This document shows, piece after piece, positions 42,733 to 61,813 of a DNA stretch of 64,000 nt. The number at the start of each line of letters is the position of its first letter. Position 1 is the first letter of the stretch. Where the stretch lies: assembly GCF_014526325.1 (NCBI RefSeq), contig NZ_JACNMJ010000001.1:1116001-1180000 (forward strand), read 5' to 3'. Under the pieces are notes generated by a model. It saw only the letters and a list, made by a program, of their open reading frames with translations, was not told where the DNA came from and made no database searches. Both the position numbers and the translations under genes were made by a program. The DNA comes from Psychroserpens algicola. Lineage in GTDB: Bacteria; Bacteroidota; Bacteroidia; Flavobacteriales; Flavobacteriaceae.

Positions 42733-43674
42733 TTACATTAAAAATTTAGAACTAATTGACTTGTTGTAATGCACATTATGCATGACTTCGGCAAATAAAT
42801 TAGCACAACTTAAAACTCTTATCTTTTCACTTTTTTGTTTAAGAGGAATAGAATCAGTCACTATTAATTCCTGAAGTTTAGAGTTCTCAAGTTTCTTATA
42901 AGCATCTCCAGATAAGATAGGATGCGTACAAATAGCTCTCACACTAAGTGCTCCTTTTTCTATCATTAAATCTGCAGCTTTCGTTAAAGTTCCCGCTGTG
43001 TCAACCATATCATCAACAAGCACCACATTTTTCCCCGTAACATCACCAATTAATTCCATATGAGAAATTACATTAGCTTTTGCACGTTGTTTGTAACAAA
43101 TAACAACATCGCTTTCTAATGCCTTAGAATAGGCATAAGCTCTTTTTGATCCACCCATATCAGGTGATGCAATCGTTAAGTTGTCTAGTGCTAAAGATTT
43201 TAAATAAGGTAAAAAGATGGTTGATGCAAATAAGTGATCTACAGGTTTTTCAAAGAACCCTTGAATCTGATCGGCATGCAAATCCATTGTAATGATACGT
43301 GTAGCACCTGCAGCTTCTAGCATTTTAGCTACTAATTTTGCAGCAATGGGCACTCTGGGCTTGTCTTTACGATCTTGTCTTGCCCAACCAAAATATGGAA
43401 GTACAGCTGTAATATGTCTTGCCGATGCACGTTTTGCAGCATCAATCATTAACAACATTTCCATTAAATTTTCTGGACCAGGATGCGTTGAGCCAATAAT
43501 AAAAATTCGTGTACCTCTTATAGATTCTTCATAAGACGGTTGGAATTCTCCATCACTATAAGTTGAGGTAATTACATTACCTAACGGCGCACCAAAAGTC
43601 ACTGCTATTTTCTCAGCAAGTTCTTTACTTTGTCCGCATGCAAAAATTTTTGCTTCTGTAGCTCCGCTTGGCAT
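42733..43674 (-). CDS. prs: Ribose-phosphate pyrophosphokinase
   Basis: 313 residues, normal. It makes PRPP from ribose-5-phosphate and ATP. Visible: FACGQSKELAEKIA, YSDGEFQPSYEESIRG, YFGWARQDRKDKPRVPIAAK, MDLHADQIQGFF and the PRPP loop VLVDDMVDTAGTLTKA. First gene of the prs-rplY operon. Confidence 0.97.
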   Translation of the reverse strand: MPSGATEAKIFACGQSKELAEKIAVTFGAPLGNVITSTYSDGEFQPSYEESIRGTRIFIIGSTHPGPENLMEMLLMIDAAKRASARHITAVLPYFGWARQDRKDKPRVPIAAKLVAKMLEAAGATRIITMDLHADQIQGFFEKPVDHLFASTIFLPYLKSLALDNLTIASPDMGGSKRAYAYSKALESDVVICYKQRAKANVISHMELIGDVTGKNVVLVDDMVDTAGTLTKAADLMIEKGALSVRAICTHPILSGDAYKKLENSKLQELIVTDSIPLKQKSEKIRVLSCANLFAEVMHNVHYNKSISSKFLM

Positions 43675-43818: not shown

Positions 43819-43900
43819 GCTCAAGTGGCGGAATTGGTAGACGCGCTGGATTCAAAATCCAGTTTCTTCGGAAGTGTGGGTTCGATTCCCACCTTGAGTA
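43819..43900 (+). tRNA. tRNA-Leu (anticodon CAA)
   Basis: 82 nt. Acceptor stem GCTCAAG with CTTGAGT, D-arm GGAATTGGTAGACGC, anticodon stem CTGGA/TCCAG with loop TTCAAAA (anticodon CAA), a long variable arm TTTCTTCGGAAG, and T-arm GTGGGTTCGATTCCCAC. The 3' CCA is not encoded. The antisense strand is read by the serine recombinase frame that ends inside it, indicating use of this gene as an integration site. Confidence 0.95.
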
Positions 43901-45407
43901 CTTCATGGGACAAATCAGATTTATTTGATTTGTCCCTTTTTTTATTCCCTTTCAAACCTTTGTTAATAATAGAAATCTTTAAAAGTATAGGATTGACATC
44001 TTCGGTTCGAACCTCATGATTCACAAATTGGAATTTTTCGGGGAAGATTGAACCCAAGAGTTTTCTTTTGAGATCTATATCGCTATTAATGAATTGATTA
44101 TCAAAATTTTCAAGTTTCTCTAAGCCATTTTTATAAATAGATAAAACCTTATTTGACTTATTCAAATTTTCCTGCTTTTCTTTGAGTTGGTTGAGTTTCT
44201 TTGAATAACGCTCTTTAGCATTTCGGTATTCTGTATTATCAAATTCACCATCTAAATAAAGATCTTGTAACTTAATTAACTTTTGCTCTAATGAATCTAC
44301 TTCCTGATAATGCTTAGGACTAAGCCTACTCGATTTAGTTTGTTCCTTAAATCGTTTTTCTATCATTTTAAATAATAATTTTCGAGCATTAGTATTCAAT
44401 GAAATACCTCCAAGAAAATTATTGAACCAATTTTCAACATCTTCGGCTTTATATCTTGTATTGCATGGTTTTGCACAGTGATAATAAGAATAGTATTGAT
44501 TGCGACCTTTTGAACTACTTGCTTTCAGTGGCTTATGGCAACTCGGACATAAAACGAAATCTTTTAAAGGGAATTTTTCGTTCACTTTTTTATGAGCGAC
44601 TTTATATTGTTTTTTACCACCATCAATATGATATTGAACCATATTAAATATGGTTTTTGAAATCAAAGGTTCGTGAATACCTTTAATAACCTGTTCAGGC
44701 TCATCTTTAAAAGCTTTTAAGTGAATATCGCCATGATATATAGGATTTCTGATAATTCTTCCAAATGCGGATTTACTAGTATTGAACCCTTTGTCTTTCA
44801 ATCTTTGAAGTACTTCTCTCTGGGAATATATGCCCTTGCTTAGTAGCTCAAAACCTTCTTTAATAAAGATAGCATCATTGTTAGGAATTAATATAGGCTT
44901 GCTTTGGTCATCTCGACCCATATCGTAGCCTTTAGGAGGGGAAACCACATAGCGACCTTCTTTGAAGGCACGTCGCATACCAGCTATCACATTTAAAGAA
45001 CGTCTATGATTTTCAACCTCTGGCATAGATAGATATACGGCTAACATCAAACCTTGCTCTGGGATCGATAGGTCCAATGGTTGTTCAATGGCGTTTACAA
45101 TAATCCCTAGTTCGTTAAATTCCTTAATCTTATTATAAGATTCAGTAGTGTTTCTTGAAAAACGATCCCATTTGGTGAATAGAATTTGGTCAGCTTTGAG
45201 CTTGTTAGCTTTTAAATATTGAATGAGTTTTTTAATCTCAGGTCTATTGAATGTTTTGGCTGAATGGTCTTCTCTAAAAATTGAAAGTACATTCAGGTTA
45301 TTGGTATTGCAATAGTTCAATAGTTTCTGTTCTTGATCTCTCAAAGAAAACCCTTTATCAGCTTGTTCATCTGTTGAGACTCTTACATAAAGAATTGCGT
45401 TTTTCAT
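43821..45407 (-). CDS. Large serine recombinase (site-specific, integrase-type)
   Basis: 528 residues. Resolvase domain: AILYVRVSTDEQADKGFSL, with the catalytic Ser in YVRVST near residue 11, and LFTKWDRFSRNT. The recombinase domain has RRAFKEGRYVVSPPKGYD and ILRNPIYHG-like (IIRNPIYHGDI), and a Zn-ribbon CPSCHKPL with a paired CAKPCN. A coiled coil follows. The last about 24 residues (VGIEPTLPKKLDFESSAS onward) are the antisense translation of tRNA-Leu, and the stop lies within the tRNA. Hence the native C-terminus is uncertain. It probably integrated the island at this tRNA. Confidence 0.9.
   Translation of the reverse strand: MKNAILYVRVSTDEQADKGFSLRDQEQKLLNYCNTNNLNVLSIFREDHSAKTFNRPEIKKLIQYLKANKLKADQILFTKWDRFSRNTTESYNKIKEFNELGIIVNAIEQPLDLSIPEQGLMLAVYLSMPEVENHRRSLNVIAGMRRAFKEGRYVVSPPKGYDMGRDDQSKPILIPNNDAIFIKEGFELLSKGIYSQREVLQRLKDKGFNTSKSAFGRIIRNPIYHGDIHLKAFKDEPEQVIKGIHEPLISKTIFNMVQYHIDGGKKQYKVAHKKVNEKFPLKDFVLCPSCHKPLKASSSKGRNQYYSYYHCAKPCNTRYKAEDVENWFNNFLGGISLNTNARKLLFKMIEKRFKEQTKSSRLSPKHYQEVDSLEQKLIKLQDLYLDGEFDNTEYRNAKERYSKKLNQLKEKQENLNKSNKVLSIYKNGLEKLENFDNQFINSDIDLKRKLLGSIFPEKFQFVNHEVRTEDVNPILLKISIINKGLKGNKKRDKSNKSDLSHEVLKVGIEPTLPKKLDFESSASTNSAT
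43907..43943 (+). terminator. Terminator of tRNA-Leu, lying inside the recombinase frame
   Basis: GGGACAAATCA and TGATTTGTCCC form a perfect 11-bp stem, with seven T after it. On the other strand it is read as part of the recombinase tail. Whether it is chromosomal or island DNA is not clear. Confidence 0.85.
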
Positions 45408-45411
45408 AAGA

Positions 45412-45564
45412 CTATCTATTTTGTGTCATATTATGATAAATGATATCAGTAAACACCTCTAATACTTCTAAAACTTGAATGACTTCGAGGTCTGTATATG
45501 GTTCTGGATTATTATCGTTTAGTATTTGTTTTGCTTCTAAATGAAAACTTGATTTCTGGTCCAT
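45412..45564 (-). CDS. Tiny protein directly upstream of the recombinase, possible frameshift
   Basis: A 50-residue frame, MDQKSSFHLEAKQILNDNNP to YHNMTQNR, ends 4 nt before the recombinase ATG, so it is coupled to it. It is acidic and helical (LEVIQVLEVLEVFTD). Just upstream a second frame begins at 45628 with MNINVALNQSLKTQ and is 1 nt out of register. Dropping one A from the AAAA run after CTG joins them into one 71-residue frame. So the gene may be longer and frameshifted, or carry a sequence error. Function unknown. Confidence 0.5.
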   Translation of the reverse strand: MDQKSSFHLEAKQILNDNNPEPYTDLEVIQVLEVLEVFTDIIYHNMTQNR

Positions 45565-45632
45565 CTCTGTTCGGGATAAAACCAGGCTGTGTTTTCAGGG
45601 ACTGATTGAGTGCTACATTTATATTCATTTCT

Positions 45633-46487
45633 TTATTTGGTAATTAAAGTTAATTTGTAATTGTCTTGGGATCTGACATCTATTAATAGTTTTGTACCCT
45701 TTGGTATTTTATTTTTCAAGAAAAAGTCTGCTATTTCGTCCTGCTTAATATGCTTTTCGGTAATAACTCTTGGCTTGATATGATTGTCATCAAAAGCAAT
45801 CTCTACAATTTTTGGGCGTTTAAAAATGACAATATCTCTTATCTGATTTTCAATATCTGAGAGATACTTAAGATTTTTTTCTGGAGAGTTTAAATCAAAA
45901 CTAACAACTTTAGATAGTTTACCTAAAATGGGAATACAAATAATTGAATCGTTTGAATATAAGCTGTTTAGCTTTACTAAGATCTCATTATTATTTTGTA
46001 AAAAATGATGTTCACCAGTATTTGGGATATAGATTATAGAGTGTGGCTCTTTACTATTCATGAGGCAAGACTTTAGCATATCTGTAAAAGGGTTTAATTC
46101 TTTTCTCAAAGTATCCATTAAGATATCATCTGAAAGCTGACTTTCTAAAACCGCTTTAGCAGAAGTTGATAATCCACTTCTTTTTGATTTTAAGTTTTTC
46201 TTTATAACATCATCAGCATATTTATCTTCTTTTGGCTGAAACCAAACATCTTTTGATAATATAGCTAACCTTTTAGAGTCTATTCCTATATCTGATAATT
46301 CTTTGATAATAGCCATCCAAATAGCTTGAGGGATATTCATTTTACCATGTTTTTGATCATCAAAGTAAGGTAGTATATGTTTGCTTTTCCAATACGTTAC
46401 TTGTCTTGAAGCGATGTTTAAATGCTTAGGGAGTATATATTTTTTATAGAGTAGTTCCCCAAATCGAACATAGGATTCGTCATTCAT
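45633..46487 (-). CDS. MerR-like DNA-binding regulator (accessory island)
   Basis: 284 residues. The N-terminal 75 residues fit a MerR-type winged HTH: VRFGELLYKKYILPKHLNIA, RQVTYWKSKHILPYF and NIPQAIWMAIIKELSDIGI. The remaining 200 residues (LSTSAKAVLESQLSDDILMD; PKIVEIAFDDNHIKPR) are strand-rich with no domain I recognise. I chose ATG 46487: the longer frame starts with TTG at 46526, upstream of the promoter box. Divergent from the small gene at 46583, and likely autoregulatory through repeats in the shared region. Confidence 0.7.
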   Translation of the reverse strand: MNDESYVRFGELLYKKYILPKHLNIASRQVTYWKSKHILPYFDDQKHGKMNIPQAIWMAIIKELSDIGIDSKRLAILSKDVWFQPKEDKYADDVIKKNLKSKRSGLSTSAKAVLESQLSDDILMDTLRKELNPFTDMLKSCLMNSKEPHSIIYIPNTGEHHFLQNNNEILVKLNSLYSNDSIICIPILGKLSKVVSFDLNSPEKNLKYLSDIENQIRDIVIFKRPKIVEIAFDDNHIKPRVITEKHIKQDEIADFFLKNKIPKGTKLLIDVRSQDNYKLTLITK

Positions 46488-46491
46488 AAAT

Positions 46492-46564
46492 TGTAAATTT
46501 ACACAAATGTAAATATTATATATCAAAAATGACTGTATTGTAAATATAAATTTTTAATTTTACA
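46492..46564. promoter_or_regulatory. Divergent control region with repeated TGTAAAT boxes
   Basis: Between the divergent MerR-like gene and 46583 there is a perfect palindrome TGTAAATTTACA (46492-46503), then TGTAAATATT (46508-46517), TGTAAATATA (46539-46548) and a reverse TTTACA (46559-46564). The minus-strand promoter box TACATTTG (plus-strand CAAATGTA, 46504-46511) sits inside the array. This looks like an operator for the MerR-like protein or a related factor. Confidence 0.6.
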
Positions 46565-46582
46565 TTAATTATTTAAAGTCAG

Positions 46583-46954
46583 ATGAAAACAGATATTGAA
46601 AAACGGATATGTCCATATAGCGGCGTTGAGTTTGCTCCCAAGCGAACGAATCAAGTTTTTGCTAATGATAGATATAGAATTGCTTATCACAATCAAAAAA
46701 ACAATTCAAAACGAAAACGTTTAGCATCCATAAATAAACCCTTATTAAAGAACTATGATATTCTTAATCAAATTCTTGGTGATGAACAAGAAAAGATAGT
46801 TCACAAAGAATATTTGAGAGGAGCAGGTTTTTCATTTTCTGTTTTTACTCATTTACATAACGACCCAAATAAAGATAAATACTATTATGCGATTTATGAC
46901 TTTTATTATATCAATTTGGACGAGAACTACTATAAAATTATAAAAAATGGTTGA
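46583..46954 (+). CDS. Small protein with an N-terminal CPY-like motif, unknown function
   Basis: 123 residues, no signal. Begins MKTDIEKRICPYSGVEFAPK, then a basic stretch (NNSKRKRLASINKPLLKN). The end is aromatic-rich (KDKYYYAIYDFYYINLDENYY). One Cys only, so the apparent zinc-ribbon remnant is incomplete. Proteins of this kind occur beside recombinases in flavobacterial islands; function unknown. The next gene overlaps it by 8 nt. Confidence 0.6.
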   Translation: MKTDIEKRICPYSGVEFAPKRTNQVFANDRYRIAYHNQKNNSKRKRLASINKPLLKNYDILNQILGDEQEKIVHKEYLRGAGFSFSVFTHLHNDPNKDKYYYAIYDFYYINLDENYYKIIKNG

Positions 46955-47150
46955 TATAGATTTACATAATATTCAAATTTTGACTTCTCAAGATATTGAT
47001 TTGGTACAAGTGTCTCATGTTAAAGAGATAGAATCACAGAATGTGTATTTGAAATATGGATTGATTGCTAGCGGTGTTTTTGTTTGTGGAATTTTATTGT
47101 ACTTATATTATCATAAAATCACTGATAAATCAACAGAAACTAAAAACTAA
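46947..47150 (+). CDS. Small single-pass membrane protein
   Basis: 67 residues. A hydrophilic N-terminus (MVDIDLHNIQILTSQDIDLV) leads to one membrane segment, LIASGVFVCGILLYLYYH, then a short charged tail. It overlaps the upstream gene by 8 nt, so the two are translationally coupled. No function known. Confidence 0.55.
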   Translation: MVDIDLHNIQILTSQDIDLVQVSHVKEIESQNVYLKYGLIASGVFVCGILLYLYYHKITDKSTETKN

Positions 47151-47216
47151 AGTGAGCTAATAACATAACTCGCTTTTGTTTTTTGAGTAGAGAGTTTTCT
47201 TTTGATTAAAGGTCTT

Positions 47217-47224
47217 TATATTTG
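47217..47224 (+). promoter_or_regulatory. Promoter -7 box TATATTTG, start-site deciding
   Basis: Exact TAnnTTTG match, with the last base only 5 nt before ATG 47229. It excludes the upstream in-frame TTG at 47202 and predicts an essentially leaderless mRNA. Confidence 0.6.
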
Positions 47225-47228
47225 TCTA

Positions 47229-49916
47229 ATGAAACGAGATAATAGAGAGATACAAAAAGATGCAGATGATCTTCTAAAAGGGCAATTAAGAAAGCTTTTC
47301 AAAGAGAATAATTTAAAACTAGGTGAGAATCCGTCAACTGAAGGAGAAGAGAAAGGTATTGACTTTTTCTTTGAGGTATTTAGTAGAACAACTGATTCAC
47401 ATGAATTTCTACTTTTAAATCAAAATAAGGGAACTGACACAGAAGTATCACCAATCACAAAAAAAGGACATCCCGAAATTAATAAAATTTCGTTTCAACT
47501 TGAAGTTCGACACGCTAAATACTTTTATTTTGAACTTAATGAGCCTCTTATCTTTACTCTTTGTGATATAAATAAAGGCTTGGTTTATTGGTATTCAATA
47601 CAGCTTGATAACCTAATTCCTGAAAGAATTGAAAAACAAGTCAAAGAAGAAAAAGAGACACTTCAGATATACATATCGCCAGAAAACATTTTAAATTCTA
47701 AAAACTTCTCTTTATTTCTGAAAGACATTAGTTACTCTAAAGGAAGTCAAATTAGAAAACATAAGGAAAAGTTCAACTTTAAAGCAGATTACAATTGGAT
47801 AAAAACTAAAACAGAAGGCCTACACATTATTGATAGTGTATACGAAACTCTTCAGCTTTTTCAATTACCTGTTATTCCTACTAGTATTATAAGAAGAATT
47901 CCAACAATTAGTGGTTCTTATTACAAAAGTTATATTAATGATTCTACTTTTAAAACAGATAATGAAGATTTTTTTAATTTAATTTATGAAATAAAATTAG
48001 TCAAAGATGAACTAAGATTTAGTGAAGGAAGTCTTGTAGAGAATCAAGAAGAAAAACTAAAAGCTATAATAGACTTTTTTAAATTAAATACTATTTATCA
48101 TTTAGAATGGAACGGGAAAAAACGTAAGGAAAGAATATGCGTTCATTACCTTTTTACATATGGTGATTGTAATTGTGAACGTTGTAATTATGATAGATTA
48201 AATTTCGCTGAAGCAAAATCTATACTTGAAAATACTATAGAAGATAGAGATAATTTAGAAAGACTAAGGGAGGGTTATACTTATTATCTTCTTGGAGATC
48301 TTAAAAAATCTATAAACATCTTTAAGAAATTAAATAATGATTCTCATAAAGAGAATAACCCAATTATTTACACTGTTACTAAATACAACTTAATCCATTT
48401 AAAGAGGTTCTTGAAATATAATTATTCTGGTAGTGATAGTGATGATATCGAAAAAGAGCTTGATGGAGTGAATTTTGAACTTGATGAGTTATTTGTATCT
48501 AATTATGCACCTCATTTCTTAGAGTTTTTTAATCAATTTAAGAATGATGCATATTTCGATAATTCATTTAGAAAAGTTGACAACCTTTTAACCGAAATTC
48601 AAAAAATCTCTTTTCAAGATAAACTGGGAGGTCGTTTTTCCAATTCTAAAGTTTCAGAATTAAAAGTAGGTTTTTTAAGGGCCTTGTGTTTTTTAGAATT
48701 TAATTATGTTATATTTAATAGCTTTCATGAGTATAAGATTTTAGCTAATAAGGTGTTAGAAGGCTTTATTGCCTTGTACACATTAAAAAATCCTGCATCT
48801 TCAAATTACAAAGAATTCGACATAATAATTATGATTATGTGGCTATTCCATGCAGATTTTAAGCAAACAAATCACTTACTACATAAATACCAACTCAAAA
48901 GTCTCAATGTTGTTAAAGAAGACAATTTCTATATTAAATTTAGTAAATATACTAACAACATAGTTCAATCAAGCGAACATATAAAAAACGCAATAACTGA
49001 AAAGAATTACTTGTTTACAGATAAGGTAGAACTTATAACATCTAACATGATTCTAATACTATCCAGAGTAGAATTAAATTCAAAAAACATAAATAGTTTA
49101 ATTGAAACTTTACTAGATTTTATTGAAACAATGGATAGCAGAAGTTTCTTAAATGATGATGCTATTTATCAATTAGTGAATTTTCAGAGAGATATAAATA
49201 AGGAAAATGTGAGTAGAATAATATCACTACTTAAAACACACGATTACATTTATTCATCAGCATTTTCTTCGAGCATTAGATTATTCTCAGAAATAGGCAC
49301 TGAAGAAGAGGTTGGAAACCTATTGATAGAGTTTGTAGGGACATCAGATTTTAGCAAGGATGAATTATTGAAAGATGATGATACTGCCCAAGCAATAGGA
49401 TTAATAATTGACAATTTAGATAGTGGTACTCAAAAAAACATTAGAAAAATTATTAAAGAGGAACTAAAATTAATTTTTAACCCAGATTTCTTCTATTTAT
49501 ATACAATTTATGAAGTTATAGATTTTGATAGTGAATTATTTAATAAGTTTATAGAGAATGTTCCTGACGACACTAAAAAGGACGAAAGAATAAAATCATT
49601 TATTGGGGACTCATGGTATTATAATTACAGACTTGATCAAGTCATAAACTTAATGTATCATTTTGACATGCCCTTTGATAAAAAGTTAAGAAAGCTCTCA
49701 AAAAAAACTAATTCTAAAAATTATTATGATTGGCTAATGAACTTAGAGGGATATGATTACACAAACTTTGATGTTTACTGGATCTTAAAACATAAAACGG
49801 ATTCCTATTTTAAGGCTTTTAATAAATCAAAAAAAATGAAAAAAATTATTCAAAAATCTTTAAAAGAAAACTACATTGAAGGTGTGGCAAAAATTTATTT
49901 TAATATGCTAGCATAA
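47229..49916 (+). CDS. Large DUF4365-type putative nuclease/defence protein
   Basis: 895 residues, soluble, from the chosen ATG. The N-terminal 150 residues fit a DUF4365 (PD-D/EXK-like) domain: IQKDADDLLKGQLRKLF, then GIDFFFEVF, the possible catalytic LLLNQNKGT and the strands FYFELNEPLIFTLCDIN and GLVYWYSIQL. A Cys cluster, CVHYLFTYGDCNCERCNYDR (about residues 305-325), could bind zinc. The remaining 550 residues are helical repeats, including YYLLGDLKKSINIFKKL of TPR type. The size and island location suggest anti-phage defence; the mechanism is unknown. Confidence 0.65.
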   Translation: MKRDNREIQKDADDLLKGQLRKLFKENNLKLGENPSTEGEEKGIDFFFEVFSRTTDSHEFLLLNQNKGTDTEVSPITKKGHPEINKISFQLEVRHAKYFYFELNEPLIFTLCDINKGLVYWYSIQLDNLIPERIEKQVKEEKETLQIYISPENILNSKNFSLFLKDISYSKGSQIRKHKEKFNFKADYNWIKTKTEGLHIIDSVYETLQLFQLPVIPTSIIRRIPTISGSYYKSYINDSTFKTDNEDFFNLIYEIKLVKDELRFSEGSLVENQEEKLKAIIDFFKLNTIYHLEWNGKKRKERICVHYLFTYGDCNCERCNYDRLNFAEAKSILENTIEDRDNLERLREGYTYYLLGDLKKSINIFKKLNNDSHKENNPIIYTVTKYNLIHLKRFLKYNYSGSDSDDIEKELDGVNFELDELFVSNYAPHFLEFFNQFKNDAYFDNSFRKVDNLLTEIQKISFQDKLGGRFSNSKVSELKVGFLRALCFLEFNYVIFNSFHEYKILANKVLEGFIALYTLKNPASSNYKEFDIIIMIMWLFHADFKQTNHLLHKYQLKSLNVVKEDNFYIKFSKYTNNIVQSSEHIKNAITEKNYLFTDKVELITSNMILILSRVELNSKNINSLIETLLDFIETMDSRSFLNDDAIYQLVNFQRDINKENVSRIISLLKTHDYIYSSAFSSSIRLFSEIGTEEEVGNLLIEFVGTSDFSKDELLKDDDTAQAIGLIIDNLDSGTQKNIRKIIKEELKLIFNPDFFYLYTIYEVIDFDSELFNKFIENVPDDTKKDERIKSFIGDSWYYNYRLDQVINLMYHFDMPFDKKLRKLSKKTNSKNYYDWLMNLEGYDYTNFDVYWILKHKTDSYFKAFNKSKKMKKIIQKSLKENYIEGVAKIYFNMLA

Positions 49917-50114
49917 GCAATTCTATATTTAACAAATTTATCTCAATCATTCTATTCTTAATTAGATTACTAGTTTTCAATACACTTTAATTCAAGTTAA
50001 TGCATTTAGAAAACGTTTTAAAATGTTTTGAATTAGTATTAAAATAGTAAAAGCGCCTATTACTATTCATTTGATTGTTAGTTTTATTAGTAGTTTGTTG
50101 TAAATTAGACTTAT

Positions 50115-50357
50115 ATGTTTGAAAATCAACAAAAAGGGCAATACAATATAGACTTTGGAAAGGAAAGAATTAAACCACTTGAAAATTGGCCAAAACAAGA
50201 ACATTTTCCACTTAATTTAAAAGAGTATAGCAGGAATGTCCAAAAGGTTATTCAAGAAGATATTGTTGCTCACGTTGCAAGTAGGCACTACAAAAGCCAA
50301 CCTTTTCCTTTAACGTGGCGAGTTTTAATGAAACAAGAAGTCTCAACAAAAGAATAG
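50115..50357 (+). CDS. 80-residue protein paired with DUF4238 gene
   Basis: 80 residues, no signal, MFENQQKGQYNIDFGKERIK. It contains RPLENWPKQEHFPLNL-like (KPLENWPKQEHFPLNL) and a helix RNVQKVIQEDIVAHVAS. I do not recognise it. The DUF4238 gene starts 4 nt after its stop, so the pair is translated from one mRNA. Such a small partner could be an antidote or a co-factor, but this is not shown by sequence. Confidence 0.55.
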   Translation: MFENQQKGQYNIDFGKERIKPLENWPKQEHFPLNLKEYSRNVQKVIQEDIVAHVASRHYKSQPFPLTWRVLMKQEVSTKE

Positions 50358-50361
50358 AATA

Positions 50362-51465
50362 ATGTCAAATCCAATAAAGCAACATTATATACCACGTTCA
50401 TATTTAAAGAACTTTGCAGTTGAAGGAAGAAAAAGAAATCATTTTGTCGATGTTTATAAAATGGACAATGATATGCTTTTAGAGCAAATAAGCACAAAAG
50501 ATATTTGTTTTGAAAAAAACATTTATACAATTCCTGCTGAATCAGATGAAGTAAAATACGCCTTAGAAAAACATTATGCTGAAAATGTTGATAGCGAGTT
50601 TCCAAAAATATATAAATTACTTGTTGATGAAAAGGTATTGACAGTTAGTCAAGAGCAAAAAATTCAAATACTATATGTATGTCTATCATTATATTTTCGT
50701 ACACCAAGAATTTTAAATCTTCAAAAAGGTATGAATAAACAAATCTTTGATAGGGCAGTTCATACAGCAAATGAACATGGTTTGATAAAAATGAATTTAT
50801 TTGGAGAGAAAATGAAATTTCATATTGATGAAATAGAGGAGGTTAAAAAACAGTACGATGAACGTTCAAGAACTGCCTTCTTAGTTAACCACCTTGAACA
50901 ATGGGGAAACTTTGTTAAATACAAATACGATTGTACAATAAATGTAATTAAAATAGAAGATTCAAATGCGCCAATAATTACTTGCGATAATCCAGTTTCA
51001 ATTAGGCATTTTGAAACTAATAAATTTCAAGGTTTATATGATCCCAAAGCAGTTATTACTTTACCCTTGGATCGTACACATTATTTAGAGATTCATCCTA
51101 ATGATTACGCAGATGGACAAACGAGAATTAATAGACTTACTCAAGACAGAGACTATGTATTTACAACAAATGGCGTTACACAACAGAATGCTGAAAACTT
51201 ATTAGTAGCATACAAAGGAGATATTGATAAACATTTTGATATTCAAAACCATTATGAAAACCCAGACAATGGAGAAGAGTTTTTGAAAAAAGCTAAATAC
51301 AGGGCAGAGCAAGCCCTCGTTTTATTTGATGTTTTAAAGAAAAAAGGGTTTGTTTCAAAAGAGTTTATAGGTAAACTTAAAGAACTTTTAGAACATCCAT
51401 ATTGTAAAGACGATATCCAAATGTTGAAGTACAAAAAGGTGCTATCAAAAATGGGTAAGTGGTAA
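50362..51465 (+). CDS. DUF4238 family protein
   Basis: 367 residues. The start PIKQHYIPRSYLKNFAVEGR is the signature of DUF4238. FEKNIYTIP and LSLYFRTPRIL follow, and later APIITCDNPVSIRH and ITLPLDRTHYLEI. DUF4238 is widespread and often found near mobile or defence genes, but its activity is unknown to me. The preceding 80-residue gene is coupled to it. Confidence 0.8.
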   Translation: MSNPIKQHYIPRSYLKNFAVEGRKRNHFVDVYKMDNDMLLEQISTKDICFEKNIYTIPAESDEVKYALEKHYAENVDSEFPKIYKLLVDEKVLTVSQEQKIQILYVCLSLYFRTPRILNLQKGMNKQIFDRAVHTANEHGLIKMNLFGEKMKFHIDEIEEVKKQYDERSRTAFLVNHLEQWGNFVKYKYDCTINVIKIEDSNAPIITCDNPVSIRHFETNKFQGLYDPKAVITLPLDRTHYLEIHPNDYADGQTRINRLTQDRDYVFTTNGVTQQNAENLLVAYKGDIDKHFDIQNHYENPDNGEEFLKKAKYRAEQALVLFDVLKKKGFVSKEFIGKLKELLEHPYCKDDIQMLKYKKVLSKMGKW

Positions 51466-51538
51466 ATTGGTTATTTGTTTTTTGCAGTTTTATATCTAAA
51501 CTTCTGTTAAACAAAATTTAGGAGTTGTTAAAATTTTA

Positions 51539-51546
51539 TACCTTTG
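51539..51546 (+). promoter_or_regulatory. Promoter -7 box TACCTTTG for the copper operon
   Basis: Exact TAnnTTTG match 9 nt before ATG 51555; an upstream in-frame TTG at 51525 lies before the predicted transcription start. Confidence 0.6.
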
Positions 51547-51554
51547 TACTCAAT

Positions 51555-51968
51555 ATGAAACAAGTATTCCATAAAGCAATGTCTTTGGCAATGGCTTTTG
51601 TAGTGTTACTCTCTACAATGTCATTTACGCTCAATATGCATTATTGTGGAGATACTTTGGTAGAAACTGCTATGTTCCATAAAGCTGAAGGATGCGGAAT
51701 GGAAATGGATAATCCTTCAACTGAAGGTTGTTCTATTACAAAAAAGAATTGTTGTAATGATGAACAATTGGTAGTTGATGGTCAAGACGAACTACAATTA
51801 CAAGTTGACAAAATTTCTTTTGAACAACAAGTATTCATCGCTTCATTTGTTTATACCTATATTAACCTTTTTGAAGGTTTAGATAACAATGTATCTTCTT
51901 TTGAAGAATACGAACCACCACTCGTCATAAAGGAAATCTTCAAGATTGACGAGACTTATTTAATTTGA
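51555..51968 (+). CDS. HYC_CC_PP family protein
   Basis: 137 residues. Signal peptide about 1-25 (MAFVVLLSTMSFTLNM). The name motifs are all present: MHYCGD, KKNCCND and EYEPP. The Cys pairs suggest metal binding in the periplasm. The family is typically the first gene of flavobacterial heavy-metal (Cus-type) operons. I use ATG 51555 because the frame back to 51525 begins with TTG. Confidence 0.85.
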   Translation: MKQVFHKAMSLAMAFVVLLSTMSFTLNMHYCGDTLVETAMFHKAEGCGMEMDNPSTEGCSITKKNCCNDEQLVVDGQDELQLQVDKISFEQQVFIASFVYTYINLFEGLDNNVSSFEEYEPPLVIKEIFKIDETYLI

Positions 51969-51988
51969 TTTTTAAACAATAGATTGTT

Positions 51989-52021
51989 TTATCCTATGAT
52001 TTTATAATATCATAAGGATAA
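51989..52021 (+). promoter_or_regulatory. Inverted repeat in the leader of cusA
   Basis: TTATCCTATGAT pairs with ATCATAAGGATAA (one extra A) around an 8-nt AT loop, in the 111-nt gap between the HYC_CC_PP gene and cusA. There is no T-run. It may be an operator, an attenuator or an mRNA stability hairpin. Confidence 0.4.
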
Positions 52022-52079
52022 TTTGCTGTATTCGGTGTTTTCCTAACGCCAATGTCTAACTGTTTAATAATCAAAGCTA

Positions 52080-55000
52080 ATGCTAAATAAAAGCATCAAA
52101 TTTTTAATAGAAAACAAACTCGTAGCAGTTCTGCTACTCGTCCTTTTTGTTGGATGGGGAACTGTAAACGCACCATTTAATTGGGATACAGGATTTTTGC
52201 CAAGCAACCCTGTAGCGGTTGACGCCATTCCAGATATTGGAGAAAACCAACAAATTGTATTCACAAAGTGGGATGGTCGTTCGCCACAAGATATAGAAGA
52301 CCAAATCACTTATCCATTAACGACTTCTTTACTCGGTATTCCAGGAGTAAAAACCATTCGTAGTTCTTCTATGTTTGGGTTTTCAAGTATCTATATCATT
52401 TTTGAAGAAGATATAGAATTCTATTGGAGTCGCAGTCGTATTCTAGAAAAACTCAATTCATTACCAAGTGGATTATTACCAGAAGGTGTTAATCCTGCAT
52501 TGGGACCAGATGCGACAGGTTTGGGACAAATATTTTGGTACACTCTTGAAGGTAGAGATGAAAATGGAAATGTTACTGGTGGTTGGGATTTACACGAACT
52601 GCGTAGCATTCAAGATTACTATGTGAAATATGCTTTAACTACTGCAAGCGGTGTTTCTGAAGTCGCTTCCATTGGTGGTTATGTACAGGAGTATCAGGTG
52701 GATGTCAATCCAGAGCTGATGCGTCAATATAACATTAGTTTAAACCAGATTGTAAAAGCGGTTAAAAGTAGTAATCAAGATATTGGTGCGCAGACTATAG
52801 AAATTAATCAAGCTGAATATTTAGTACGTGGTTTGGGTTATGTGAAATCTGTTGAAGATATTGAAAATGCTGTAGTTACTTCAGAGAATTTTACTTCAAT
52901 TAAGATTAAAGACATTGGTAAAGTATCATTAGGTCCAGCAACACGAAGAGGTTTATTGGATAAAGAAGGTGCGGAAGTCGTTGGTGGTGTTGTAGTGGCA
53001 CGATATGGTGCAAATCCAATGGAAGTCATTAATAATGTAAAGGCGCAAATTGAGGAGCTGAAAGGCGGATTACCTTCAAAGGTATTGGCAGATGGACGAA
53101 CATCTCAATTAACTGTTGTTCCTTTCTATGATCGTACCGAGCTTATTGAAGAAACATTAGACACGCTTAATGAAGCGTTGACACTAGAAATATTAATTAC
53201 CATTTTGGTTATTATTGTTATGGTTTTCAATTTAAGAGCTTCTATTTTAATTTCTGGATTGTTGCCTGTTGCAGTATTAATGGTATTTGTTACCATGAAA
53301 CTGTTTAACGTAGATGCCAATATTGTAGCACTTTCTGGTATTGCTATTGCAATTGGAACTATGGTAGATGTAGGCGTCATTCTCGCAGAAAATATGATTC
53401 GCCATCTCGATGATGACAAATTACGATTACGAGAAGATGGCACAGAGTTAACTACGAATGAAGTAGTTTATAATGCGACTGCCGAAGTTTCTGGAGCAAT
53501 TTTAACTGCGGTATTAACTACAATTATAAGCTTTGTTCCTGTATTTACAATGATTGGTGCAGAAGGAAAATTGTTTAGACCATTAGCATTTACCAAAACG
53601 ATGGCGTTATCAGCATCTTTGGTTATTGCCTTATTCCTAATCCCACCATTAGCAGCTTATTTATTCAGAAAAACATCATTTAAAAAGTCATTTAAATACA
53701 TCATAAATGGTGCTTTAATAATTGCTGGAATAGCAATTATGGTTACTGGATATTGGTTAGGGATTATTTTAATTGCTTTTGGTATTACAGGTTTACTTGG
53801 AGTTTTGGGTAAACTAAATAAGAAAAACAGCAATCTTGTAAATATTATTATTTCGTGTACTGCCATTATTTTTTTACTTGCCGAATATTGGAGACCACTA
53901 GGCTTTGACAGAAGTATTTTAGTCAATCTTATTTTTGTAGCTATTATTTGCTTCGGAATTTTAGGAATATTTTCAATTTTTAGAAGTTATTATGGACAGA
54001 TTTTAAACTGGGCTTTAGCAAACAAACTTTTGTTTTTAATTATTCCAGCAACTGTGCTTGTTTCTGGAGGATGGATTATGAACAATACAGGAAAAGAATT
54101 TATGCCATCTTTAAACGAAGGCTCTTTTCTATTAATGCCAACCTCATTACCACATTCAGGTGTTGAGGAAAATAAACGTGTGCTTCAGCAATTAGATATG
54201 GCTGTAGCCACCATTCCAGAAATTGAAACCGTAGTAGGAAAGTCTGGTAGAACAGAATCTGCATTAGATCCTGCACCTTTATCTATGTACGAAAACATGA
54301 TTCAGTATAAGTCTGAATACATGCGTAACTCAAAAGGAAAAAGACAACGTTACAAAGTAAATGACGATGGTGCTTTTGAGTTGAAAGATGGAACATTTAT
54401 CGCCAATCCTAATAATTCCGAAAATGTTGTTTTTACAAAAGTTAGACATGCTCAACTTATCGAAGATAATGATGGCGAATTCTATCGTAATTGGCGACCA
54501 GAAATTAATAGTCCTGATGATATTTGGAATGAAATAGTTAGAGTTACCAAATTACCAGGAGTTACTTCTGCACCTAAATTACAACCGATAGAAACCAGAT
54601 TGGTAATGCTTCAAACAGGAATGCGTGCACCAATGGGAATAAAAGTAAAAGGACAAGATTTAAAACAAATTGAAGCGTTTGGATTGCAGCTAGAAACCAT
54701 TCTTAAACAAGCAGAAGGTGTAAAAGAGCAAGCTGTTTTTGCAGATAGAATTGTAGGGAAACCTTATTTACTTATTGATATTGATAGAGAAAAAATAGCA
54801 CGTTATGGTGTATCTATAGAAGATGTACAAAGTGTGCTGAAAGTAGCAATTGGCGGTATGGCTATTACTCAAACTGTAGAAGGAAGAGAACGCTATGCTG
54901 TTAGAGTGCGATACCCTAGAGAGCTACGAGGTAATCCAGAAGATATAAAAGGCATCTATATTCCTGTTGAAAAAGGAAGTCCTATTCCATTAAGTGAATT

Positions 55001-55808
55001 AGCGACGATTCGGTATGAGCAAGGTCCACAAGTCATAAAAAGTGAAGACACCTTTTTAGTTGGCTATGTGTTGTTTGATAAATTAGATGGGTTTGCAGAA
55101 GTTGATGTTGTTGAAAATGCGCAAGCTTTATTTCAACAGAAAATAGATTCAGGAGAATTATCTGTTCCAAAGGGCATCAGCTATAAATTTACAGGCACTT
55201 ATGAAAATCAGTTACGAGCAGAAAAAACGCTTTCTGTTGTCGTTCCATTAGCACTTGCTATTATTTTCTTGATTCTATATTTCCAATTCAAATCTGTTAC
55301 TACGTCACTCATGGTTTTTACAGGAATAACAGTTGCTTTTGCAGGTGGTTTTATAATGATATGGTTATACGGTCAAGATTGGTTTTTCAATTTTAGTTTG
55401 TTTGGAGAGAATATGCGAGACCTTTTCAATATGAAAACCATCAATTTAAGTGTGGCGGTTTGGGTAGGTTTCATAGCCCTATTCGGTATTGCAACAGATG
55501 ATGGTGTCGTTATGGCAACATACCTCACGCAAACTTTTGAGCGTGAAAAACCTTTGGATAAAAAGAGCATAAGAACTTCCGCTTTACAAGCAGCCGAAAA
55601 ACGTATTCGTCCGTGTTTAATGACTACTGTAACTACCATTTTGGCGCTGTTACCAGTATTGACATCCACAGGAAAAGGAAGTGATATTATGATCCCTATG
55701 GCAATTCCAATATTTGGAGGCATGGTTATAGACATTACCTCTTATTTTATTGTACCAGTATTATATAGCTGGAGAGAAGAGTTTAAATTGAAAAGAGCAA
55801 ACAAATGA
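52080..55808 (+). CDS. cusA: CusA/CzcA-type heavy-metal efflux RND pump
   Basis: 1242 residues, longer than the usual about 1050. Conserved: AVDAIPDIGENQ, FTKWDGRSPQDIEDQITYPL, TM4 motif GIAIAIGTMVDVGVILAEN (acidic residues near 428), VEGRERYAVRVRYPREL and GTYENQLRAE. It exports copper or silver through the cell envelope with an adaptor and an outer-membrane channel. The extra length is an added membrane stretch near residues 530-640 and a charged insert near 745-800. The TolC-like gene overlaps its stop by 4 nt. Confidence 0.94.
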   Translation: MLNKSIKFLIENKLVAVLLLVLFVGWGTVNAPFNWDTGFLPSNPVAVDAIPDIGENQQIVFTKWDGRSPQDIEDQITYPLTTSLLGIPGVKTIRSSSMFGFSSIYIIFEEDIEFYWSRSRILEKLNSLPSGLLPEGVNPALGPDATGLGQIFWYTLEGRDENGNVTGGWDLHELRSIQDYYVKYALTTASGVSEVASIGGYVQEYQVDVNPELMRQYNISLNQIVKAVKSSNQDIGAQTIEINQAEYLVRGLGYVKSVEDIENAVVTSENFTSIKIKDIGKVSLGPATRRGLLDKEGAEVVGGVVVARYGANPMEVINNVKAQIEELKGGLPSKVLADGRTSQLTVVPFYDRTELIEETLDTLNEALTLEILITILVIIVMVFNLRASILISGLLPVAVLMVFVTMKLFNVDANIVALSGIAIAIGTMVDVGVILAENMIRHLDDDKLRLREDGTELTTNEVVYNATAEVSGAILTAVLTTIISFVPVFTMIGAEGKLFRPLAFTKTMALSASLVIALFLIPPLAAYLFRKTSFKKSFKYIINGALIIAGIAIMVTGYWLGIILIAFGITGLLGVLGKLNKKNSNLVNIIISCTAIIFLLAEYWRPLGFDRSILVNLIFVAIICFGILGIFSIFRSYYGQILNWALANKLLFLIIPATVLVSGGWIMNNTGKEFMPSLNEGSFLLMPTSLPHSGVEENKRVLQQLDMAVATIPEIETVVGKSGRTESALDPAPLSMYENMIQYKSEYMRNSKGKRQRYKVNDDGAFELKDGTFIANPNNSENVVFTKVRHAQLIEDNDGEFYRNWRPEINSPDDIWNEIVRVTKLPGVTSAPKLQPIETRLVMLQTGMRAPMGIKVKGQDLKQIEAFGLQLETILKQAEGVKEQAVFADRIVGKPYLLIDIDREKIARYGVSIEDVQSVLKVAIGGMAITQTVEGRERYAVRVRYPRELRGNPEDIKGIYIPVEKGSPIPLSELATIRYEQGPQVIKSEDTFLVGYVLFDKLDGFAEVDVVENAQALFQQKIDSGELSVPKGISYKFTGTYENQLRAEKTLSVVVPLALAIIFLILYFQFKSVTTSLMVFTGITVAFAGGFIMIWLYGQDWFFNFSLFGENMRDLFNMKTINLSVAVWVGFIALFGIATDDGVVMATYLTQTFEREKPLDKKSIRTSALQAAEKRIRPCLMTTVTTILALLPVLTSTGKGSDIMIPMAIPIFGGMVIDITSYFIVPVLYSWREEFKLKRANK

Positions 55809-57022
55809 AAAGAATAATTTATATACTCATAGGTTTATTAACTTTTAGTGTCTCTAATGCACAGCAATTAGAAACACTTATTAATGAAGCTCTAACTAAT
55901 AATCCTGAAATTCAAAAATTTGAATTGCAATACAAAAGAGCTTCTGAAAAAGTAAATGAAGTCAATACCATTCCTAATACCGAATTTGGCGTGGGTTACT
56001 TCGTAAGCGAACCAGAAACCCGAACAGGAGCACAACGCTTTAAAGTATCGGCTAAACAAATGTTACCGTGGTTTGGTACAATTGCTTCACGAGAAAATTA
56101 TGTGAGTTCATTGGCTGATGCAAAATATGAAGACATTGTTATTGCAAAGCGAAAATTGATGGCTTCTGTATCACAATCCTATTATAATCTTTACGCTAAT
56201 AAAGCAAAACAAGAGGTTTTAAGCGAGAATATTAAACTATTGGAAACCTACGAAACGTTAGCATTAACCTCGGTTGAAGTTGGCAAAGCTTCAGCTGTAG
56301 ATGTATTGCGATTGCAAATGCGTCAAAATGAAATGCAACAACTAAAAGATGTTTTAAGTCAACAGTTTTTAGCGGAACAAACGAATTTGAATAATCTTTT
56401 GAACAGGAAAAATGATACTGCTGTTACTGTGGTAGATAGTTTAATGATGCCTTCAGAAGACTTTGAAATTAATTCTGAAAATTTAGCATTACATCCTGAA
56501 TTACTAAAATTCGATAAACTTTATCAGTCGGTAGAGCAATCCGAATTATTAAACCAAAAAGAAAGCAGTCCTATGATTGGTTTTGGCTTAGACTATATCA
56601 ATGTTTCCGAAAGACCTGATATGAATTTCTCGGATAACGGTAAAGATATTGTAATGCCAATGGTTTCGGTGTCAATCCCAATTTTTAATAAAAAATATAA
56701 ATCTCAAACCAAGCAAAATGAGTTGCAACAGCAAGAAATAACAGCTCAAAAACAAGAACGATTAAACACTTTGGAAACGCTTTTAAGCAAGGCGATTAAT
56801 GAACGTATTTCTGCAAGAATAAGTTATAAGACTCAAACCAAGAACCTAAAACAAGCTAAAGATGCAGAGGACATTTTAATCAAAAGCTACGAAACAGGAA
56901 CGATTGATTTTAATGATGTTTTGGATATTCAAGAACTACAATTAAAGTTTCAAATGAACCAGATTGAATCTGTGAGGACCTACTATGTTCAGAGTACTAT
57001 AATTAATTATTTAATACAATAA
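55805..57022 (+). CDS. TolC-type outer-membrane efflux channel
   Basis: 405 residues. Signal peptide ends near SNAQ. Two OEP repeats are visible: LINEALTNNPEIQKFELQYK and the second half near ALHPELLKFDKLYQSVEQSE. Conserved LEVGKASAVDVLRLQ-type helix (SVEVGKASAVDVLRLQMRQ). It is the channel partner of the RND pump. The start overlaps the cusA stop (ATGA). Confidence 0.92.
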   Translation: MKRIIYILIGLLTFSVSNAQQLETLINEALTNNPEIQKFELQYKRASEKVNEVNTIPNTEFGVGYFVSEPETRTGAQRFKVSAKQMLPWFGTIASRENYVSSLADAKYEDIVIAKRKLMASVSQSYYNLYANKAKQEVLSENIKLLETYETLALTSVEVGKASAVDVLRLQMRQNEMQQLKDVLSQQFLAEQTNLNNLLNRKNDTAVTVVDSLMMPSEDFEINSENLALHPELLKFDKLYQSVEQSELLNQKESSPMIGFGLDYINVSERPDMNFSDNGKDIVMPMVSVSIPIFNKKYKSQTKQNELQQQEITAQKQERLNTLETLLSKAINERISARISYKTQTKNLKQAKDAEDILIKSYETGTIDFNDVLDIQELQLKFQMNQIESVRTYYVQSTIINYLIQ

Positions 57023-57025
57023 GCA

Positions 57026-57751
57026 ATGAAAAGATTAACATATATAATCGTATTAGTGTTTTTTACAATTGCCTTTTTGTCTTGTCGAGATAAAGAAAGT
57101 AAAACTCTTTCAACAGAAGTAAAACATTCAGGTGCTTTACGAACAATAATGTCTGGTAATATTCAATCTGTAATCAGTTTAGACACACTTTCAAAAATGA
57201 AAAACCTTTACGCTCTTGGTGCTGTGGATAACCTCAAGGGCGAAATTCAAATATTTGATAGTCAACCAAGTAACAGTTTTGTGGTTGATAGTAGTTTACA
57301 GATTAAAGATTCTTACAACCTAAAAGCATCTCTATTAGTATATGCAGAAATTGAAGCGTGGGATTCTTTTCAAATTGAGAATAGTAAAACAAAAAGTGAT
57401 TTAGAAAAGCAAATTTTTGAAATAGCTACAGCTAATGGAACAGACACAGAAAAATCATTTCCTTTCCTTTTAGAAGGTACTATCGCTTCTATAGATTGGC
57501 ACGTTATAAATTGGAAAGATGACGATAGTATACATAATCATAAAAAGCATAAAGAGTCTGGTTTAAATGGAACTTTACAAAATCAAGGAGTTCAAATTAT
57601 TGGGTTCTATTCTACAAAACATAAAGCAATTTTTACTCATCATACTACTAATATGCATATGCATTTTAAAACCAATGATGGTGCTGTTGCAGGCCATATT
57701 GATGACTTATTATTAGATAATTCAATAACACTAAGATTACCAAAGCGATGA
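57026..57751 (+). CDS. Acetolactate-decarboxylase-like lipoprotein
   Basis: 241 residues. Lipobox FLSC puts the lipid on Cys 20. The rest resembles acetolactate decarboxylase: LYALGAVDNLKGEIQIFDSQ, LEGTIASIDWHVINWK and the metal triad region TNMHMHFKTNDGAVAGHIDD, that is HxH then H 11 residues on, as in the zinc site of the enzyme. The catalytic Arg region (KTRTVPKQ in ALDC) is replaced. It ends 4 nt into the multicopper oxidase frame. In this operon a metal-binding role is more likely than acetoin synthesis. Confidence 0.65.
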   Translation: MKRLTYIIVLVFFTIAFLSCRDKESKTLSTEVKHSGALRTIMSGNIQSVISLDTLSKMKNLYALGAVDNLKGEIQIFDSQPSNSFVVDSSLQIKDSYNLKASLLVYAEIEAWDSFQIENSKTKSDLEKQIFEIATANGTDTEKSFPFLLEGTIASIDWHVINWKDDDSIHNHKKHKESGLNGTLQNQGVQIIGFYSTKHKAIFTHHTTNMHMHFKTNDGAVAGHIDDLLLDNSITLRLPKR

Positions 57752-60081: not shown

Positions 60082-60113
60082 ACAATAAACATTAATAAAT
60101 AAATAACAAAACA

Positions 60114-60722
60114 ATGAAAAATTTAAAAGTAATAACAGGAATTTTAGCAATGACATTTTTAACATTAACGGCAATGTCGTGTAAAGACGCAAAAAAAGAA
60201 CAAAACAACGATGAAGGTCATAATACAGAAATGAATCACGACAATAGTGATGGTCATCACGATAGTGACAAAAAAGAAATGGCAATGAATAGCAATCAAG
60301 ACGGAAATGCAGAAATGATACTTAAAGATTATTTTAATCTAAAAGATGCTTTAGTTTCTGATGATGAAGCAAAAGCAAAAGAATTTGGCGCAGTATTGAA
60401 AAAAAGTTTAGAAAATTTAGATGTTTCTAAATATACAGAGGAGCAACAAACAGAATTAAAAGAAATTGTTGAAGATGCAATAGAACACGCAGAACATATT
60501 TCAGAAAGTCCAATGGCACATCAAAGAGAACATTTTAAAGTTTTAAGTAAAGATGTTACAGATATGGTTGCTATTACAGGAACAGCAAATACTTTATACG
60601 AGCAATTTTGCCCGATGTACGATAAAGGTAGTGCTTGGTTAAGTAAAAGTGAAGAAGTACGTAACCCTTACTACGGAAGTAAAATGCTAAAATGTGGTAA
60701 AGTACAGAAAGAGATTAACTAA
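60114..60722 (+). CDS. DUF3347 lipoprotein, His/Met-rich
   Basis: 202 residues. Lipobox TLTAMSC. A His- and Met-rich linker (HDNSDGHHDS, MAMNSNQDGNAEM) leads to a DUF3347 domain (about 70-165) with AEMILKDYFNLKDALVSDD. The end QFCPMYDKGSAWLS has CPM, a possible metal ligand. The domain is seen beside Cus-type pumps in Bacteroidota; likely a periplasmic copper-binding protein. Confidence 0.82.
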   Translation: MKNLKVITGILAMTFLTLTAMSCKDAKKEQNNDEGHNTEMNHDNSDGHHDSDKKEMAMNSNQDGNAEMILKDYFNLKDALVSDDEAKAKEFGAVLKKSLENLDVSKYTEEQQTELKEIVEDAIEHAEHISESPMAHQREHFKVLSKDVTDMVAITGTANTLYEQFCPMYDKGSAWLSKSEEVRNPYYGSKMLKCGKVQKEIN

Positions 60723-61178
60723 ATGAAAATTGTTAAAAATATAATGTTGGTTTTATTAGTTGTTTTTGTGGGCATACAATTTATTCCCACAGAAGGCAAC
60801 CAAAGCGATATAGTCCCAAAAACCGATTTTATGTTAGTTAACAACGTTCCAAATGACATTAAAAATAAGTTACAAGTATCTTGTTATGATTGCCATAGTA
60901 ACAACACAAACTACCCTTGGTATAATAAGATACAACCAGTTGCTTGGTTTTTAGAAGACCATATTAAAGAAGGTAAAGCCGAATTGAATTTTAGTGAATG
61001 GGACTCTTTATCAAACCGAAGAAAGGCAAGCAAGCTACGGTCAATTATTAAACAAATTGAAAGTGATAAAATGCCATTGGATAGTTATACATTAATTCAT
61101 AGTGATGCTATTTTAACAGATTCTGAAAAGCAAGAAATAATACAATTTCTAACACAGATAAATGAAAATTTAAATTAA
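60723..61178 (+). CDS. Haem-binding domain protein (CxxCH), exported
   Basis: 151 residues. N-terminal membrane/signal segment (IMLVLLVVFVGIQF). The cytochrome-like site is SCYDCHSNNTNYPWY (CxxCH), followed by VAWFLEDHIKEGKAELNFSEW, as in PF14376 haem-binding proteins. It starts directly after the DUF3347 stop. It could pass electrons or sense redox state near the copper oxidase; this is inferred. Confidence 0.85.
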   Translation: MKIVKNIMLVLLVVFVGIQFIPTEGNQSDIVPKTDFMLVNNVPNDIKNKLQVSCYDCHSNNTNYPWYNKIQPVAWFLEDHIKEGKAELNFSEWDSLSNRRKASKLRSIIKQIESDKMPLDSYTLIHSDAILTDSEKQEIIQFLTQINENLN

Positions 61179-61179
61179 A

Positions 61180-61737: not shown

Positions 61738-61779
61738 ATATTATCCAATATTAGGAAAACTATACTGGCAAGTGAAAGG

Positions 61780-61787
61780 TAGTTTTG
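61780..61787 (+). promoter_or_regulatory. Promoter -7 box TAGTTTTG for the copper ATPase
   Basis: Exact TAnnTTTG match, 26 nt before ATG 61814. The ATPase may thus be expressed from its own promoter. Confidence 0.6.
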
Positions 61788-61813
61788 TGGGTTAACTTTA
61801 AAATATAAAAATA

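Follow-up and report, generated by a model that had tools for sequence, protein, structure and literature searches.

A large serine recombinase gene that appears to span its own attP and to exchange its native tail for antisense tRNA on integration

Introduction

Integration of SSV splits its integrase gene. In the Myxococcus phage Mx8, attP lies within int and integration gives the gene a new 3' end; the resulting enzyme is still active, with modified specificity (PMC6070905, in the extract available). Mx8 and SSV are both named as having integrase genes which extend across attP in the accessible text of the Islander paper, where 'integrase' denotes the tyrosine family only (PMC4383910). According to the same extract, tyrosine-integrase islands at tRNA genes carry sequence which restores the split tRNA gene. 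According to a database paper of 2014, tRNA genes were not among the known targets of serine integrases, and the available part of a 2017 review names tyrosine enzymes for tRNA-sited elements (PMC5704250). The word 'tRNA' is absent from the main text of a survey of large serine recombinases (PMC10083194), and the accessible portions of the TIGER/Islander papers PMC12884075 and PMC12424338 hold no breakdown of serine integrases by tRNA.

The locus described here lies in a window of 64,000 nucleotides from Psychroserpens algicola (GCF_014526325.1, contig NZ_JACNMJ010000001.1, positions 1,116,001 to 1,180,000). As in Mx8, attP falls within coding sequence and integration changes the 3' end of the gene, here judged from sequence alone; as with the SSV-type archaeal integrases, the gene extends across attP (PMC4383910, available text). 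Mx8, however, is a phage with a tyrosine recombinase; the present enzyme is a large serine recombinase on a copper-resistance and probable defence island, takes its host segment from the antisense strand of a tRNA and belongs to a family in which many different tRNAs are used. From SSV, also a tyrosine recombinase, it differs in that the exchange is limited to the last 21 codons. Integrase genes spanning attP are known for tyrosine integrases (Mx8, SSV). Our search, mainly of openly available literature, found no printed serine case, and priority is not proven. It is very probable, in our judgement, that the island has its attP within the final part of its own recombinase gene and that integration swaps a native tail for antisense tRNA; the swap probably also helps to set direction, as proposed below.

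The recombinase gene and its overlap with tRNA-Leu(CAA)

The integrated isoform of the recombinase is a 528-residue protein encoded at 43821..45407 on the minus strand, in which a PF00239 Resolvase domain (91.5 bits) is followed by a PF07508 Recombinase domain (41.6 bits). R9, S11, D81, R82, R85, C287, C290 and C311 are invariant in 24 aligned family members, and C315 is conserved in at least 90% of these. We take Ser11 to be the catalytic serine, R9, D81, R82 and R85 the active-site Arg and Asp residues, and Cys287, 290, 311 and 315 the zinc-ribbon. Domain order, catalytic residues and zinc-ribbon cysteines are those of a large serine recombinase. The attachment sites have the short core (4 bp) of serine recombinases and, for the likely zinc-domain motif, their shift of about 5 bp, the shift being visible on the tRNA-side half only.

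By profile, the protein matches the A118/LI large serine integrase (PDB 4kis, 6dnw) across the DNA-binding domains. This match stops at profile position 456, so that the tail is an addition beyond the A118 fold; unlike the phage integrase, the recombinase runs a further ~40 residues plus the swapped tail past the aligned part. In the AlphaFold model of the integrated isoform (pTM 0.42), mean pLDDT is 74 at residues 461–470 and then falls to 66, 48 and 33–36, with residues 486–528 below 50. The nearest NCBIfam models are XisF (128 bits) and CcrB (110 bits), well under their cut-offs of 375 and 900. Assignment to the SCC Ccr recombinases was rejected, CcrB and CcrC scoring 110 and 76 bits against cut-offs of 900; unlike CcrB/CcrC and XisF, the target here is the 3' end of a tRNA. 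No relatives of the recombinase were found on viral contigs by tblastn, and its best matches in plasmid and phage records all fall below 60% identity.

A sequence-only reading of the window had proposed that the recombinase frame ends as the antisense of the adjacent tRNA-Leu(CAA), and the coordinates bear this out. The tRNA, located by ARAGORN at 43819..43901 on the plus strand and identified by junction alignment as the integration target and attB half, overlaps the recombinase by 81 nt, comprising codons 503–528 and the stop. The stop codon itself (43821-43823, minus strand) lies inside the tRNA. The same reading had placed the tRNA terminator within the recombinase frame, and both a tRNA-strand hairpin (43907-43936) and the T-run which follows it (43937-43943) are indeed found there.

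Island ends and empty sites

Thirteen relative loci (L020-L032) were found by the tRNA alone. In all thirteen tRNA-Leu(CAA) is preceded by a gene we take to be prs, its upstream neighbour in the window (42733..43674, minus strand), while downstream of the tRNA none of the thirteen matches the window. The reading had called for an empty tRNA-Leu site to be compared with both junctions. Such a site exists in relative G004, where the tRNA is followed by a hairpin and T-run and then by a presumably HupE-like gene; in the window genome, G000, this flank is displaced by 42.8 kb. The empty site reads CTTGAGTAC|AAAAGG, attL CTTGAGTAC|TTCATGG and attR TGTAGTGTAC|TAAAGG. The one string common to all three is GTAC, at the 3' end of the tRNA, and the crossover is placed there; attL and attR additionally share the next T. 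Core to core, the island spans about 42,803 bp. Its part in the window is 43898..64000, and its right end, attR, lies beyond, with the GTAC core at contig C8:1202701-1202704 (equivalent to window positions 86701-86704), where the native recombinase tail adjoins.

The attL core (43898..43901) comprises the V503 codon and the first base of codon 504. Since the crossover falls inside codons 503-504, residues 504–528 and the stop of the integrated isoform (43821..43897, minus strand) are host tRNA read antisense. The element half of attL and attP lies within recombinase codons, at approximately 43902..43927 on the minus strand, an extent set by the half-site length of serine integrases in the available text of PMC3783163. 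The hairpin and T-run (43907..43943, plus strand) are supplied by the element in place of the tRNA's original terminator. The reading had also named outcomes that would tell against it, namely a stop well before the tRNA, or relatives with an uninterrupted tRNA and the same tail encoded elsewhere; in the loci examined no stop was found ahead of the tRNA, and the tRNA-derived tail was found at tRNAs.

The position at a tRNA 3' end is shared with the tyrosine-integrase elements NBU1 and Tn6031 (PMC5704250, available part). Unlike tyrosine-integrase tRNA islands, however, the core here is only 4 bp and the tRNA body is left untouched: the island carries no copy of it, and instead brings a hairpin and T-run within the recombinase codons. 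Classification as such an island was rejected, the recombinase being serine-type and no displaced tRNA 3' copy lying near the distal end. The far end was located through the empty site. Repeats in the window yielded nothing useful as a tRNA 3' repeat marking it; nor did a search of the same genome with the tRNA and its flank, which gave two weaker matches, both on contigs other than that of the island, and no match close to its distal end.

Agreement between attB, attL and attR was also obtained for tRNA-Leu(TAG) in G002, tRNA-Asn in G009 and tRNA-Phe in G022. In these empty-site comparisons the tRNA was found in 4/6 loci for tRNA-Leu(TAG), 3/4 for tRNA-Phe and 3/4 for tRNA-Asn, with a matching flank in two of the last three and none in G007. 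A contiguous attP junction was met in 0/397 family genomes and nowhere in IMG/VR, with patterns built from the close subgroup. The sole joined example, in G057 (L080 1462-1566), has a relic recombinase 3' end in frame with the native tail of another island, reading KRDKSKKSNLPHDV-HYIDLFSNQVLKLFKQLIDLD; here a tandem insertion rebuilds the native junction.

The native tail of the predicted circular form

Starting at the core and continuing into the element's part of attR in G000, the recombinase frame reads V-HYIDLFSNQLLNLFKNLISCD-stop, giving 21 residues after V503 and a total of 524 residues. These last 21 codons should rejoin the recombinase gene only in the excised circle. The suggestion of a C-terminus that differs in the circular form is thereby upheld at the level of the predicted frames, with 21 residues after V503 rather than 25. 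The accompanying idea that recombinase length depends on the integration state stands in a weaker form: the lengths do differ, but only slightly (524 versus 528 residues), and it is the identity of the tail which changes wholly.

The tail recurs widely. A 28-nt attP-arm pattern, allowing up to three mismatches, matched 14 of 21 genomes (G019 and G067 look like one genome), against 0/21 for a reversed control pattern. After L083 and L095 had been left out, as coming from the same genomes as L082 and L094, all 19 distal (attR) copies had an open in-frame tail of 21–29 residues from V503, and in 18 the length was 21–25. Sixteen non-redundant tails remained on setting aside L093 and L096 (near copies) and L099 (core lost).

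It might be supposed that the tail is conserved merely as DNA, as the arms of attP, its reading frame being incidental. The first nine or so tail codons do overlap a shared motif, GGTTCGAGAATAGGTCAAT, and codons 2–10 coincide with the DNA motif used for the site search. Codons 11–20, however, extend beyond the 28-nt pattern and past the usual half-site, and there the 16 tails contain no stops, whereas the two other forward frames hold 23 and 19 and the three reverse-strand frames 33, 1 and 21. Their mean pairwise BLOSUM62 score over these codons is 1.27, compared with -0.55 for column shuffles (sd 0.50, maximum 0.80), of which 0/1000 reached the observed value; the reverse-strand frame with a single stop scores 0.25. 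Entropies at codon positions 1, 2 and 3 are 1.28, 0.85 and 1.50. The pN/pS ratio, near saturation and uncorrected, is only 0.68 (0.79 in the frame shifted by one and 1.59 in the other), which would suit conservation as DNA; the claim of selection therefore rests jointly on frame, stops, conservative change and helix. As to the last, 22 native tails (the 16 and six from distant elements, without the two short G465 tails of 13 and 16 residues) have a mean helical moment of 0.53 in 12-residue windows, against 0.29 for shuffles (sd 0.03). In 15 tRNA-derived tails the value is 0.19 against 0.25 (sd 0.03), with no sign of a helix; this set omits L011-L013, L017, L041, L046, L058 and every tail shorter than 20 residues. 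Given the frame-specific conservative change, the helical periodicity and the narrow range of lengths, conservation as DNA only is very improbable. The preferred reading is that the native tail is under protein-level selection, as indicated by its preserved frame, by a stop that hardly shifts in position and by the amphipathic helix which the tails show on average. That the conserved tail is the tail of the circular form goes beyond the sequence-only reading.

The distal tail in G000 contains no in-frame ATG or GTG and one TTG, and the host-side frame ahead of it is open over the 18 codons shown, so separate translation of the tail is possible there. Among more distant elements, 6 of the 19 examined yielded an acceptable distal tail in a scan which imposed a 17-nt offset and in which three regions were short (13-22 kb; G071, G466, G461); for the Pedobacter and Mucilaginibacter elements the figure was 0/9. 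Examples are VHRSVLFSNHFLTDLERLTSILV from Chitinophaga and VESTGQKSNYFDEDLNSLNKN from a tRNA-Phe element. A candidate distal end in G062, VYYFSRHSNVVNVFLNTSLI, was rejected for want of a good terminator and a complete core.

Proposed recognition of the tRNA

The T-loop sequence is common to nearly all tRNAs. In the tRNA its string GGTTCGA is separated from the core by 12 nt, and in attP by 17 nt. A displacement of this size is described for A118-family sites in the available text of PMC3783163, the zinc-domain motif sitting 5 bp nearer the centre of attB than of attP. By this analogy the zinc domain of the present enzyme probably reads GGTTCGA, and the near-universality of the T-loop would then explain hops between tRNA types. 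Because the scan of distant elements imposed the 17-nt offset, its presence in G009, G022, G073, G074 and G465 is not independent evidence; the distal end of G462, with the same offset, was found without imposing it.

Recurrence in a Bacteroidota recombinase family

Of the 47 recombinase loci examined, 39 carry a tRNA close to where the gene ends (L045 and L046, near copies, are both counted). In 37 of the 39 the first in-frame stop lies beyond the tRNA-end crossover, six of them having it inside the matched stretch but still past the crossover, and in 33 the T-loop is read in the same frame, although the loci are related by descent and the counts are not independent events. The four read-through loci using another frame are L011, L012, L013 and L017; in L041 and L058, which lack read-through, the frames end 176 and ~470 nt earlier. 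A hairpin and T-run follow the tRNA in 38/39 loci, compared with 11/39 after shuffling of those bases. The elements occupy tRNA-Leu, Arg, Asn, Met, Phe, Val and Ser genes, and tRNA-Cys is found beside a truncated gene. On the best tree of 36 recombinases (without L041, L046 and L058, and with L017, L060 and L009 flagged as long branches) the tRNA family must switch 13 times, where shuffling of the labels gives 16.9 on average; the strongly supported branches by themselves require only 4 switches for Leu, 5 for Arg, 2 for Asn and 2 for Met.

This recurrence bears on the simplest account of the overlap, in which a recombinase gene has lost its stop and reads by chance into a neighbouring tRNA, or the frame is an artefact of ORF calling. 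Antisense frames of tRNAs are often open, which lends this account some plausibility. That seven kinds of tRNA are read through past the crossover, mostly in one frame, makes it scarcely credible. The arrangement is instead a trait of the family, a point not made in the sequence-only reading.

Eight loci lack a tRNA. Of these, L057 and L014 have stops of their own, L063 and L064 have truncated frames, and at L005/L042 (one locus) and L037 the 3' fragment of a tRNA stands next to other DNA that follows it. In the last group the fragment resembles that of tRNA-Leu(TAA) loci, severed from its tRNA and lying beside the recombinase, and in L005 a frame starting MATINFLLRST follows it; these are probably tandem islands at one tRNA. 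In G058 (contig C49), two distal att sites 105 nt apart carry different tails (L097, L098), an arrangement which suggests stacked islands. In the eighth locus without a tRNA, L053, an apparent non-tRNA tail was not used, its contig ending in what is presumably adapter sequence.

Neighbouring genes and island cargo

Directly upstream of the recombinase is a 50-residue ORF (45412..45564, minus strand), homologues of which, at ~45-54% identity, were present at 11 of the 62 other loci searched, a count in which one locus appears twice. Its protein is a candidate directionality factor or helper. A 297-residue protein without assigned function (45633..46526, minus strand) has matches in 12 of the 62 (one locus again appearing twice, and L040 weak), mostly just upstream of the recombinase.

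The remaining cargo includes metal-resistance genes (window 52080-64000 and L069), with AcrB/CusA-type pumps for efflux of the copper/silver type, outer-membrane factors, a multicopper oxidase and P-type ATPases. Near the distal end are a QatA-like fragment (L070 49-741; 84 bits, cut-off 600) and a QatD (L070 2921-3655; 267 bits, above the cut-off of 230), which are likely, from these matches, to represent anti-phage defence cargo. A low-GC part of the island encodes a 904-residue DUF4365 protein (47202-49916) and a DUF4238 protein (50362-51465), for which PADLOC gave no match. No relaxase, coupling protein or type IV secretion gene turned up when 19 other proteins of the island were compared with Pfam. 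Elsewhere, in G019 (contig C5, L071 161-6318), a 6.1-kb segment with no recombinase lies between an attR-like tail and tRNA-Leu(CAA); it carries genes we take to encode an exonuclease, a ligase, a helicase and a phosphoesterase-like protein, and may possibly be an island moved in trans.

The tail swap and the direction of recombination

Taken as sequence evidence, the comparisons establish the site, the crossover, the two reading frames, selection on the native tail and recurrence of the arrangement. In the circle, the recombinase gene would read through attP into a native amphipathic C-terminal helix, with its stop 21 codons after V503. Recombination of attP with attB at the tRNA 3' end would then cut the gene at GTAC, the same recombinase 3' end supplying a terminator to replace the one lost by the tRNA. 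Both isoforms would be made. In a cell with the integrated copy alone, the tRNA-tailed enzyme is the only one present and must therefore be able to excise, probably with a helper, while the native tail would serve integration or the circular state. If so, the swap probably helps to set the direction of recombination.

It is attractive to consider recombination itself as a switch, in which the circle isoform favours integration and the tRNA-tailed isoform only excises with a helper, possibly the 50-residue protein. The host tRNA would then serve the selfish enzyme as an exchangeable final exon. We advance this stronger form tentatively, at somewhat less than an even chance. The same architecture could also be non-regulatory, with the native tail required for folding, stability or activity and the integrated isoform a tolerated by-product, and this too we hold at somewhat less than an even chance. 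It accords with the variability of the integrated tails, which range from three residues (VHL or VHS before the stop, at four Pedobacter loci) to ~50 codons (L048) and have no helix on average, and with the fact that all the selection detected concerns the circular form. Yet one base substitution ahead of the core could suffice for a stop independent of state, and the arrangement has nonetheless persisted through the 13 target changes of the best tree and in distant members.

Significance

Direction control is a central question for large serine integrases, enzymes widely used in genome engineering. In the family described here, the enzyme's own sequence appears to record whether the DNA is integrated or circular. 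The tail of an integrated recombinase ORF differs from that of the native protein, which is a caution for annotators; since this tail is not native, the annotated isoform may not be the one that should be tested as a tool. Finally, the family targets tRNA genes, contrary to the 2014 statement for serine integrases, and recognition of the T-loop offers a simple possible reason for its use of so many tRNAs.
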